A stretch of 64,000 nucleotides of DNA from Haematococcus lacustris (taxonomy: Eukaryota; Chlorophyta; Chlorophyceae; Chlamydomonadales; Haematococcaceae): assembly GCA_030144725.1 (NCBI GenBank), contig JASKMD010000014.1, positions 4,329,370-4,393,369 on the forward strand. The letters run 5' to 3'. Shown here piece by piece: positions 24,931 to 59,086 of the stretch. Each line of letters starts with the position of its first letter. Within the stretch, counting starts at the first letter, position 1. The notes under the pieces are model-generated. The model searched no databases. It saw only the letters and a program-made list of their open reading frames with translations, and was not told the origin of the DNA. Both the position numbers and the translations under genes were made by a program.

Positions 24931-25436
24931 ATGCCCCCGAAAAGGAACCGCAAGCGCCCCGTCTCCCCAGCACCGGTAAGCCGCGAAGCTTGAGGAAAGG
25001 CTAGGCCCCCCGAAGCTAACTGTCGACGCGACGCAGTGTGCACCACGCGACGTTGCGCCTACGTGTCTGCAGGTGCCAGCGGCAGCGGGCAGCAAGTCCA
25101 GGGGCAGGGGAAGGCTGCCAAGGTAGTGATTGCAGAGCGGCGCCAGGTCATCAAGGCTGGCCTGCGTGGCCTTGTGAAGGCAGCCCTGCCTGATTTCAGC
25201 CCAGCTCAAGTCGACGCCATTGTGGCTGAGATTAACAAGCGCCAAAGCAAGTGACCAAAGCCAAGCAGGACACAGCCCGTTGGTCAGCTGCCATCCAGCC
25301 ACAGCTGCAGCAGCTGGCAGCTGCCACCCCAGCTGGCACCACCCTGGATGGCCTCCACGCCCACATCCTGGCCCTCAAGGCCACCTGGGACCCGCTGTGG
25401 GAGGAGTACCTCAAGCCACGCTGGCGCTATTATATT
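24931..25436 (+). pseudogene. N-terminal fragment of a TnpB/Fanzor-like element gene
   Basis: It starts with a very basic exon (ATG at 24931, MPPKRNRKRPVSPAP, donor at 24976), a nuclear-localisation-type N terminus. Next comes a charged helical segment (VIAERRQVIKAGLRGLVKAA at about 25127-25190, then a frame change). After that is LALKATWDPLWEEYLKPRWR (25371-25430). The last motif parallels the TLVTWPAMW segment ahead of the RuvC region in the copy near 58.2 kb, which links it to that family. Homology stops at about 25436. A 3' end of the same kind of element follows at 25613-25990 in the opposite orientation, so this is rearranged debris. Confidence 0.45.
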
Positions 25437-25440
25437 ATAT

Positions 25441-25508
25441 TTGTAGTAGCTGAGTGAGATTACCCACAGCCCAACATGTTGTTCCTTGTTGAATGAGTTT
25501 TGTTGGCC
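25441..25508 (+). repeat. 68-bp dispersed repeat, inverted partner of 50001-50068
   Basis: The whole 68 bp is the exact reverse complement of 50001-50068, and similarity stops abruptly on both sides. It begins TTGTAGTAGCTGAGTGAG. It is a short, very recently copied segment of unknown nature. Confidence 0.9.
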
Positions 25509-25612
25509 TGCCCTTCTCACACACGGATGTGCATGTGAGCATGTATTGTCAACACACAAACGACGCCGCAAGCGCTCTTGACTACCCAAACACATGATAA
25601 ACCCGCCCATTG

Positions 25613-25990
25613 TAACCGTCAGCCCTCTCGTCCCTCACTAGGGCCTCCATTTGAGCCGGACCACTAGGGAATACTAGGGACCACTAGTGGCCCGACTCAA
25701 ATGGTGTTAATGGGATGTGTGGAGTACACCCAATGCACATGACATGGTGCATGAATGCCTACCACTCACACTACTGCCTGACCGCGAGGGCTATTGTGTA
25801 GAGTTGGCATGAAAAACATGCGCTGATTGTAGGCTGGTGACAGCTCAACAAAGGGGGCAACACTACTGTAGCACAGTAGGCTGCTGCTGCTGCTGGGCCT
25901 TGGGTGGCTTGTCTCGCAGCCCCTTGTAGCCCTGGCCAGGGTACTCTTTGCCCTTGACTAGCAGAGCTGTCTGCTGTCTGCCATCATGCT
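25613..25990 (-). mobile_element. TnpB/Fanzor-like element 3' end (copy C)
   Basis: Read on the minus strand, an ORF remnant encodes the family tail KGKEYPGQGYKGLRDKPPKA and a Gln run to TAG at 25865-25863. A module of about 250 nt follows, shared with the copies ending at 32799, 35741 and 45735. It contains CATGCCAACTCTACA and CTCCACACA, and then a terminal hairpin. The hairpin arms (25684-25703 and 25648-25667) pair over 20 positions, including two G.U wobbles in the sense RNA. The end is CCCTAGTGAGGGACGAGAGG. No RuvC region is present. Confidence 0.7.
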
Positions 25991-55989: not shown

Positions 55990-56104
55990 CTGTACTAGCA
56001 CTTGGGAGCCTGGCGGCAAGGCAGGGCCACCCAGGCCATGCAGCCAGCGCAGAGCAGCCAGCTCAGCACGCACTTGAAGGTCCACGTCCTGATCAGGCGC
56101 TTGC
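55990..56104 (-). other. possible upstream exon of the ankyrin gene
   Basis: On the minus strand an acceptor (CCCATCAG) and a good donor (CAG|GTGAGG) bound a frame reading VDLQVRAELAALRWLHGLGG, then LPPGSQVLVQ. The L.LR..L..WL....PPGS.VLV pattern loosely recalls the conserved segment after the SBP domain in SPL proteins. It is weak evidence but consistent with the suggestion made for 50126-55189. Confidence 0.3.
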
Positions 56105-57039
56105 CTGATGGGGCAACAGCTAGAGCTACCCCTGCTTCCTATTCTCTCATCAGCTCCCATTCTCCCCAAGCCACTGTGCCTCACCACTCCCGCCCCTGCT
56201 GCCTGTGTGGCTGCGGGCCCTGCTGATCCAGCTGCTGCTATTGTCAGTCCCGCAGCTGCCACCACATCCTCTGTACTCTGGTCCTGCTGATCCTGCGGGT
56301 CCTGCTGATCCTGTCTGGTTGCGGCTTGCTTCCCAGCCAGCAGTCGATCAGTGCTGGCTGATGGCTGGTGCATGGGCAGCTGGGAGTGACCCACATGGAC
56401 CAGGGCGGGCTGCAGGCTGGCAGGCTGAGGGCCAGCAGGTGGTTGGGGTGCAGCAGGTGGCTGGGGTGCAGCAGCACCGCAGCGGGACGGGGCAGCGCGG
56501 CTGGTGCACGGGTGGGCCAACAACTGCAGCTGCCGAAGGAGGGGATGGGTGGGGGCAGGCAGAGCCCGCGGCGGCAGCAGTGCCTGCTGGGTCGGTGGGC
56601 CCGGGGGGTAAGGGGAGGGGCTGGGCGAGGGGGAGGGGGAGGGGGAGAAAGAGGGGGGTAGAGGGGCTGCCCGGGGGTCCTGCTGCTGCACAGAGAGGCT
56701 GGAAGGAGGCGGCATGCTGGCCCCCCTGCCTGGCTGTATGGCCCCCTCCTGCTGTCCCTGAGGCCCTCCCCAGGACCTGTAGGGGGCAGCAGGGGTCAGC
56801 AAGGGGCAGCAGGGGGGCCTCCCTGGCAATGACCCTCTGGCAACGGGAGCAGCCGTGTCAGCTCAGCACCCAATGGCCAGCGGCAGTGTGAGGAGCAGCT
56901 GGACCAAGTGCAGCCCACCAGGCCTGCAGGCTGGCGGCCCCCAGCAGGGCAGGTGCACACCCTGCCTGCGCCGTCCAGCATGGAGCCGGCGGCAGGACCA
57001 GCCAGTCGAGGGCCTGGTGTGGTGCACACACGGGCCGTC
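56105..57039. other. no gene recognised
   Basis: Pro/Gln/Gly-rich sequence is open on both strands but without motifs. It may hold 5' exons or introns of the ankyrin gene. Confidence 0.35.
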
Positions 57040-57330
57040 ACACCAATACCCACACAGCAAGACAGACCCCCAGCAGCCTCAGAGCCTGGACCCAGTGCTC
57101 CGGTGCTAGCCAAGTGCAGCAAGCGCACCAAGGGCGGAGCAACCGGTCAAGCTCCCTAAGGGCAAGGACAAAGGGCAAGGGCTGCCAAACCTGCCCCACA
57201 GGAACACAGCCTGGCTGGTGGGTAGACAGGGGCAGCAATGCAGCTGAACATGCAGCGCACTGGGGAGAGCAAGTGGAGGTCACTGGAGATGAACTGGTGG
57301 CCCAGGCTGGGCTGATGAAGAAAGTGCCCC
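57040..57330 (+). pseudogene. decayed TnpB/Fanzor-like C-terminal fragment
   Basis: The plus-strand sequence retains PPAASEPGPSAPVLAKCSKR, corresponding to the linker SEPGPSTPPPAKRSK of copy 1 (32.2 kb). It then has a frameshifted AALNMQR-type segment (AAMQLNMQRTGESKWRSLE) before similarity ends at about 57330. The RuvC-III Asp is lost and no 3' module follows. It is an old copy of the same subfamily. Confidence 0.55.
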
Positions 57331-57699
57331 AAGGCGCCTGACCTAAGTTATAATGCCCATGGCAAGCACGTTGGAGGGTGGCAAACAGCACTGGAAGTTG
57401 TGAAGACATGGAGGTTAGAAAGGCAATTCGTCGAAGAAGTGCGAAACACACACTGTGTGGCAGTGGTAAGAATGGCCTTGATGCTCATGCTCGAGGCGCC
57501 ACTATGCAAATTCAACGTCTTGCGAAGGCAGCACTACTGGCCGGGAAAGGACCTACGAATGACGAGACGCACCTCAAGCACTGACGATGCTTGACACCGC
57601 GGGCTCGTCACGTTGTCGTTCACCAATCCACGTGTCAAACCGTGATTTCCTACCGCGTAAACTACGAAAGGTGATGAAAAACTGCGAACATCACGGTCT
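57331..57699. other. no gene recognised
   Basis: Unassigned sequence between two TnpB/Fanzor-like fragments. Confidence 0.3.
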
Positions 57700-59086
57700 A
57701 TGACCCCGTTTCCAATGCAAGAGCGGGAGCCGGAGGCAGAGCCGGAGCCAGAGCAAAGAGCCAGAGCTGGAGCCGGAGCTCCCCAGGAGCCCAGAAATGG
57801 CTTTAACCGCCGGCCAACCGTCGGCTCCGCGGACCCCCGTTTCCAATGCAAGTGCCAAGAGCCGGAGCCAGGAGCCAGGTTCGCTCCTAGATGCGCTCTT
57901 GGGAGCCTCATGCAGCCCGAGCAGCTCGAGGGCCGCGGAGCTCGGAGCCGGAGCCGGAGCCCAAAGATAACTCCCCTGCATCGACTAGTGGCTCGCAACA
58001 GGGCTCCCAGGAGGAGTCGAGGGTTCCTCCATGGGACGACCAGCAGGATGAGCTGTTTGCGGAGCTGTACGCCCAGCTGTTTGCGGAGCTGTACGCCCAG
58101 CTCTGTACGCCCAGAGCTGTCGCAAGTCACCAACTACACCGCCTCGCTGCAGCGGTACCGGGAGTACGCTGACACGACGCTGGTGACCTGGCCGGCCATG
58201 TGGCCGCCAGGTTCCGGCTGTACGGAGGCAAGCAGCGCACGGTGGCCAAGTTCTGGGCTGAGGTGAGTAGGCCGTACGTGTCAGTATGTGTGCCAGTATG
58301 TGTATGTTTATATATGCTCATTATGCTTGTCTTTGCCATGACTTGACATGTGCTCACAATGTGTCTCTCCTTGTGTGCCCTGACTGCAGACTGTCAAGGG
58401 TGCCAAGGTACGCTGCAACTCGGCTACCACAGGTCGCCCCCTGGCCCTGGCCTATGGGGCAGCAGGCTTCGGTGGCAGTGGCAGCATTGGCAGCAAGGGT
58501 GTGCCTGTCAACCAGATGCGACGGGAGGCATGCAATCAATTTCCCGGGCGTGTGGTGCTGGTGCATGAATTTCGTACCAGCCGGGTCAGCTCTGCCCGCA
58601 CCAACGTGGTGCAGGGCCAGGCAGAGTCCGTCAGGTGAGAGAACTCAGATGCATTCGCACTGTGGGAGTGGAGTCATTACATAGCTTTAGAATGGCATCT
58701 CACACACTAGCCTAGATTGTGCCCTTCACTGTTCAGGCTATACATGGCTTGGCTTAACACTTGGTTTGGTGAGGAAAGGTCTTACATGTGAGCATTGACA
58801 TATGTTGCCTTGCAGGTGGCTGCACCCGGTGCGCAACAAGTCCCGGATCCGGGGCTTGATGTGCTCAACAAGCAATGTCATCAAGCGCGGGTTCTACGAC
58901 CGAGACGTGTCAGCCGCGCTGAACATCCGCCGCATTGCAGCCGGGCCGGGCCGCCCACGCGAGCTCAGTAGCTGGCTGGGCCGCCCCGCCATGCCTAATC
59001 CAGGCAGACCAGGCCAGGAGTGGGTGTGCGTGCGCAACAAAGGCCTGTTGCGGAAGTGGCGGCGGCGGCACCAGCGGCAGCGATAG
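57700..59086 (+). pseudogene. second-family TnpB/Fanzor-like nuclease gene, N-terminal part frameshifted
   Basis: The exons 58390-58634 and 58816-59086 join in frame. They give VPVNQMRREACNQFPGRVVL, then VHEFRTSR (RuvC-II-like Glu in the EFRTS motif), RIRGLMCSTSN, then FYDRDVSAALNIRRIA (RuvC-III-like Asp) and a basic tail LLRKWRRRHQRQR with TAG. The preceding exon ends at 58262 (RFRLYGGKQRTVAKFWAE, phase 0). Further upstream the frame is broken: LSQVTNYTASLQRYREYADT and PPWDDQQDELFAELYAQL lie in different frames, around a 24-bp tandem duplication (58045-58092). The zinc-finger cysteines usual after EFRTS are mostly gone. TnpB/Fanzor proteins are RNA-guided DNA nucleases of transposons; this copy is probably dead. 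Confidence 0.65.

Follow-up and report, generated by a model that had tools for sequence, protein, structure and literature searches.

Fanzor elements in a 64-kb window

The stretch of Haematococcus lacustris DNA considered here, 64,000 nucleotides long and called the window below, is strewn with copies of two families of mobile element, A and B. To judge from their sequences, both carry genes for Fanzor proteins, predicted RNA-guided DNA-cutting enzymes. A preliminary description of the window had recognized two Fanzor-like subfamilies that were once active, and both the division and the past activity are borne out. It had mentioned neither the exact 3' boundary of the copies, nor the duplications around them, nor several of the pieces described next (the start at 33637, the solo ends at 26626 and 26367, and the fragments at 25251, 28084 and 45174).

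A six-frame motif scan of the window finds the RuvC-III motif of family A, DRDCNAALN, at 32345-32371 (+) and 46161-46187 (-). With eight gene models from the genome as queries, tblastn maps family A to 25251-25424, 25905-25976, 32150-32494, 33716-35435, 46029-46211 and 56848-57312, the last a decayed copy that aligns at 40-44% identity with three proteins of the family. The three copies claimed earlier, two with the DRD motif and one decayed near 57.2 kb, are therefore all present. So is the C-terminal tail said to unite the copies: KGKEYPGLGYKRLRD occurs four times in the window with at most five changes, at 32447 (+), 35391 (+), 46041 (-) and 25911 (-). The four copies with tails share an identical 3' end point, and the older 57-kb copy is without that end. 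Compared with one another, copies in the window show 73-97% DNA identity, with E values down to 0, far beyond chance.

The 35.4-kb copy is an internally deleted element at 33637-35744 (+). Its start at 33637 and four further coding exons (numbers 1-4 in the Fanzor gene, at 33716-35358, placed by tblastn) are followed by a direct jump to the C-terminal tail and 3' end, with RuvC-I, -II and -III missing; its bounds come from the 14-nt target-site duplication CTGGGTTACCCTCC, found at 33623-33636 and again at 35745-35758. The 32.3-kb copy (32139-32804, +) is 5'-truncated and retains RuvC-III and the tail. It has two possible pairings of flanking repeats: the 10-nt CTGCTCTGCA at 32129-32138 and 32805-32814, or the 14-nt TGCTCTGCACAACC at 32077-32090 and 32806-32819, which would move the start of the element to 32091. 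Near its end lie ACAGCCC (32687-32693, +), complementary to the junction GGG|CTG as judged by alignment and by DNA folds of other copies, a subterminal hairpin (32704-32777, +) with 13-bp arms TTTGAGCCGGATC (32704-32716) and GATCCGGCTCAAA (32765-32777), the same hairpin that folds in the copy L002, and a terminal mini-hairpin CCCT AGTG AGGG (32784-32795, +).

Two older copies on the minus strand were found by their tails, one at 45732-46233 with RuvC-III, tail and 3' end, the other at 25623-25980 with tail (25911-25955) and 3' end. Their last 35 nt are 94% and 97% identical to those of the 32.3-kb copy; identity drops to 41% and 52% in the adjoining 75 nt and is 74% and 79% in the 210 nt that precede these. 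An extent of 3,412 nt considered for the 46-kb copy was discarded, as it depends on a 9-nt repeat that is probably due to chance. Two solo 3' ends lie nearby on the minus strand, about 65 nt at 26626-26691 and about 32 nt at 26367-26398. The remaining family A pieces are the old copy at 56848-57312 (+), with a decayed RuvC-II flank and RuvC-III, and an old fragment at 25251-25424 (+) of the sequence that separates RuvC-I from RuvC-II.

Family B is represented by an element at 58116-59349 (+) with its own 3' end and two hairpins. The preliminary description had reported EFRTSR followed by RuvC-III between 58.4 and 59.1 kb; both are there, EFRTSR at 58567-58584 and DRDVSAALN at 58898-58924, in separate frames. 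The 13 nucleotides of CTGTACGCCCAGA stand on either side (58103-58115 and 59350-59362), so that clear target-site duplications flank this copy and the one at 33.6-35.7 kb. Besides 58099-59083, tblastn finds family B at 28084-28209 (-), a fragment from immediately before RuvC-II, and at 45174-45414 (-), part of the N-terminal exon.

Fanzor identity of the proteins

None of the window copies carries the whole gene, and the protein must be read from gene models elsewhere in the genome. I surveyed 239 distinct proteins among the matches listed (120 of 1,028 and 120 of 162), and all 240 rows listed come from H. lacustris. RuvC-I, -II and -III stand in order at strict spacing in 65 models of family A and 41 of family B, with the D-E-D triad in order in 63 and 38 of them, respectively. 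The models join RuvC-I DPG, RuvC-II DEHRTS or DEFRTS, and RuvC-III DRD in one protein, and the Fanzor-like assignment of the preliminary description, made from RuvC-III and RuvC-II segments, survives this comparison.

The detail of the motifs points the same way. RuvC-I reads GIDPG or GVDPG, and RuvC-II reads E-HRTSRV or E-FRTSRV, followed by Ser where the first zinc-finger Cys would be. DPG in RuvC-I and an "alternative" Glu six residues before the start of the zinc finger are Fanzor fingerprints (PMC10711439), and the match to them supports the identification. The distance from the Asp to [TS][TS] is 174-201 residues in A and 163-181 in B (the filter that picked the models itself allowed about 160-200), within the 125-275 given in a definition of Fanzors (PMC3627910). 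Between RuvC-II and RuvC-III the zinc-finger CxxC is absent from all 65 family A and all 41 family B models. A C4 zinc finger occurs in many Fanzors, though not all (PMC10711439), and its loss sets these proteins apart in a single feature without excluding them from the group.

Structural comparison also puts Fanzors first. For a low-confidence model of the family B protein the top five Foldseek matches are all Fanzors (E 1.4e-7 to 3.3e-5), while VIA-align gives a tie between Fanzor and Cas12j; for family A, again with a low-confidence model, Fanzors come first but weakly (E 0.02 or worse). That the motifs are coincidental frames in repeats, with no Fanzor behind them, can be dismissed almost outright: sequence searches are indeed weak (PF07282 exceeds its cut-off in 2 of 7 scanned proteins, the larger margin being 1.3 bits; PDB matches include neither a Fanzor nor a TnpB chain; Pfam and NCBIfam searches are weak or empty), but against it stand 106 gene models with D-E-D in order at Fanzor spacing, and the Fanzors at the head of the structural matches.

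Two oddities among the predicted proteins may be set down here. The best PF07282 match of the seven scanned, P0118 (27.6 bits against a cut-off of 26.3), contains in residues 1-110 a further variant, DEFRTSRVSSAMN ... VDRDCNAALNIQRAGES, preceding a family A protein. A family B Fanzor stretch also lies inside P0129, P0132, P0150, P0166 and others, together with PF01026, PF00071, PF00481 and PF01412; these mixtures reflect either errors of gene prediction or elements inserted within or close to genes.

A fixed 3' boundary and thousands of 3' ends

The assembly from which the window comes amounts to 307.9 Mb, and the window occupies positions 4329370-4393369 of its contig C40. Searching it with window positions 32280-32810 gave 41 listed matches (40 of 5,477 first-look candidates were scored). 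A 26-base pattern from the 3' end, with at most two mismatches allowed, occurs 4,167 times in the genome (2,068 on one strand and 2,099 on the other), and its reversed control not once. The 3' boundary is exact in 30 of 30 family A loci, which were picked by a query spanning that end, and the 5' starts vary. Some family A copies have lost the middle but retain their 5' part, with breakpoints that differ from copy to copy. In the long copies L031-L034 an intron still separates the exons for RuvC-I and RuvC-II. None of the 30 boundaries is followed by poly-A; two of them precede a few CTG triplets.

An intron of the Fanzor gene holds a tandem array of GACCT-type pentanucleotides (7215-7455 in L033, element positions 1153-1666 in L045), whose length varies among copies. 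L015 and L041 contain the same insertions as window 32.1-35.8 kb within the same flanks and are segmental duplicates, one of them with extra sequence on its 5' side. A 53-nt copy in L041 was once taken as a sign that the final 53 nt are enough for mobility; I dropped this argument, since truncation may occur during insertion.

For family B a search of the genome, in which 40 of 2,174 candidates were scored, listed 46 matches. The end-keeping copies number four, and in two of them, the window copy and L063, 13-nt duplications start with CTG.

Target-site duplications

A repeat of at least 10 nt upstream matches the sequence just past the 3' boundary at 29 of 61 ends, compared with 16 of 304 mismatched pairs, some of the 16 being segmental duplicates. 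With offsets of 0-3 permitted, 25 of the 29 repeats start exactly at CTG, which is a free test of the CTG start; the presence of CTG at 58 of 60 ends is a biased count, as the pattern itself ended in CTG. Anchoring at CTG and removing repeated loci leaves 22 events, 21 of them 10-15 nt long (the CTG start in this set holds by construction, and one of its 60 ends is without sequence).

Among the 21 events, G stands at -2 in 20 and GG precedes CTG in 15, although GG precedes just 11.7% of the CTGs in the window (p 2.7e-10). The preference is much the same when three events missed through a shorter locus are added (L031 at 9733, L034 at 9829, and L030: G at -2 in 23/24, GG in 16/24) or when the 32.3-kb copy, with its alternative 14-nt pairing, is left out (19/20 and 14/20).

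The duplications lie at or near truncated 5' ends, and so truncation seems to have happened at insertion for many copies. This changes one part of the preliminary description, which held that the family is now mostly fragments. The window copies are indeed fragmentary, but many look broken at insertion, since duplications flank copies that are 5'-truncated or internally deleted; the older window copies show signs of later decay as well.

Hairpins and a complementary sequence near the end

The last 130 nt of L002, folded as DNA, form two hairpins, one of 13 bp and a small one with arms CCCT/AGGG, and CAGCCC pairs with GGGCTG (z -4.9). Of the five family A ends tested, L002 and three others fold better than their shuffles, the three others at z -2.7 to -4.5. 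Across 30 aligned copies 95.9% of the hairpin cells pair, and 4 of its 17 pairs have changed on both sides, a count that 2 of 500 shuffles also reach; with the partner slid by +1, three pairs are two-sided as against four in the true register, and the changes are contributed by a few copies that may be related to one another. Of 53 family A copies, 50 contain ACAGCCC. Family B ends form two hairpins, with CAGC paired to GCTG across the junction (z -2.7, -4.7 and -2.3). The CAGC(CC) sequence lies 118 nt from the end in A and about 65 nt in B, and apart from CAGC the two ends are unrelated.

Proposed one-ended transposition

I propose that families A and B probably spread by rolling-circle, one-ended transposition, begun at the 3' end by a Rep protein of the Helitron type acting in trans. 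Rep would nick a donor at GGG|CTG, the nicked end would be joined to a GG|CTG-like target, and copying would run leftward until replication stopped early, producing both the 5' truncation and the duplication. The fixed 3' boundary, the variable 5' ends, and the duplications that start with CTG all support a one-ended mode in the case of family A. Intact Fanzors are predicted to bind RNA of the 3' end, with the flank serving as guide, and to cut the matching empty site beside a short motif, perhaps GG, which would favor retention or spread of the element. Cutting, guide RNA, and target motif are all predictions by analogy with known Fanzors, whose target motifs include CATA for SpuFz1 and TTAAN for GtFz1 (PMC10432273).

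The genome has a candidate for the required enzyme: Helitron Rep (PF14214) gives 18 matches, all above the cut-off, among them loci at C22:7543126, C143:3991645 and C100:1193826. The element ends have no match in the 1.5-kb flanks compared at eight Rep loci. Two results weaken the proposal somewhat. The three 5' ends folded in search of a hairpin do no better than shuffles, with the 5' end occurring in several variants. The family B 3' end, distinct from that of A, is kept in 4 of 9 copies compared. A third Fanzor variant, YEFRTSRVSSS ... DRDTNGCLNLQRIGES, adjoins a Helitron Rep fragment at L055 (C212:9252-9356, minus).

Two other modes of spread are both improbable, to about the same degree. 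In the first, the machinery of long interspersed nuclear elements (LINEs) reverse-transcribes element RNA into new copies. A 5' truncation, a fixed 3' end, and duplications of 10-15 nt are just what LINEs leave behind, and this was my first reading of the truncations. I rejected it, since the boundaries lack poly-A, the end is a hairpin anchored at CTG, and the introns kept in L031-L034 speak against the copying of spliced mRNA. Inspection by eye of the reading frames of long copies revealed no reverse transcriptase, and no profile search was aimed at one.

In the second, an ordinary cut-and-paste transposase moves a DNA transposon whose copies later decay by deletion. Many copies do retain both ends without the middle, and Fanzor1 genes elsewhere are carried by DDE-type elements (PMC3627910). 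But the duplications lie at or near truncated 5' ends; their position places the truncation at insertion, and their length varies from 10 to 15 nt. Nor does any inverted repeat of at least 10 nt join the two ends of the 3.5-kb copy L045 among the 25 pairs listed of 34.

A more speculative extension of one-ended transposition has two parts. CAGCCC in A, or CAGC in B, would act as a DNA guide that pairs with the junction (GGG|CTG or G|CTG) and so selects the target, much as with TnpA of IS605, though here in a rolling-circle element of a eukaryote. The thousands of solo 3' ends would each supply an RNA scaffold with a unique guide derived from its flank, a dispersed store used in trans by a few intact Fanzors to cut empty sites preceded by GG. 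I think this unlikely. It is weakened by the end of the 46-kb copy, which folds no better than its shuffles (z 0.17), and by the family B copies L057 and L060, for which no repeat of at least 8 nt exists within about 1 kb upstream. In family B, moreover, the targets T|CTG and C|CTG both mismatch the fourth guide base, which argues against choice of target by pairing.

Other features of the window

Direct repeats of 387 bp, 99% identical, at 10465-10851 and 16481-16867 surround a frame of 1639 amino acids (10899-15818, minus), and the whole looks like a young long terminal repeat retrotransposon. Tandem arrays run for about 1 kb from 43740, in steps of 21 nt, and over 55215-55669, in steps of 10 nt. 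Positions 32000-35600 matched no phage record; the whole window gave no tRNA and no Rfam family above its gathering score.

Fanzor elements on a large scale

H. lacustris is a commercially grown alga. Fanzor elements number in the thousands in its genome, and the catalytic residues survive in many of the gene models. Thousands of insertions with readable targets would allow the target-adjacent motif and the start of the guide to be predicted before any experiment, and they permit a test of whether transposition and RNA-guided cutting share one motif. Fanzors without the zinc-finger cysteines are, moreover, a natural test of whether the finger is necessary.

Comparison with known systems

The ends acted on by TnpA of IS608 and IS605 have a short sequence beside a terminal hairpin that is complementary to the cleavage or target site. 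The ends of A and B are unrelated to these, and in A and B the corresponding pairing is a prediction. A search of the literature, with most subscription papers outside its scope, turned up no earlier report of the H. lacustris elements.

Among proteins, the closest known are SpuFz1 and GtFz1 (PMC10432273; PDB 8gkh, 9cer), which come first in Foldseek for both models and share the D-E-D RuvC, DPG, and the alternative Glu. Families A and B differ in having no CxxC at the zinc-finger position.

Among elements, the closest parallel is with CRe-1, CRe-2 and CRe-3 of Chlamydomonas reinhardtii, in which Fanzor1 resides in a non-autonomous Helitron2 with one-ended behavior (Bao and Jurka 2013, PMC3627910). 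The resemblance extends to a Fanzor1 gene of several exons, copies that are often truncated at the 5' side or deleted internally, over-representation of the 3' part, a 3' hairpin, duplications whose length varies (from 7 to 19 bp there and from 10 to 15 here), and extra sequence at some 5' ends. The target is T-rich (TTTT) there, whereas it is GG|CTG in A and CTG in B; the 3' repeat is 20-30 bp from the end there, whereas CAGC(CC) here stands 118 nt from it in A and about 65 nt in B; and 35-150 loci per family were examined there, against more than 4,000 family A ends here. For the H. lacustris elements, no partner Helitron or 5' hairpin turned up in the flanks and ends compared. Family A, and in part family B, follows the one-ended pattern known from Chlamydomonas; the H. 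lacustris elements stand apart by a different target, a degenerate zinc finger, and a very high copy number.

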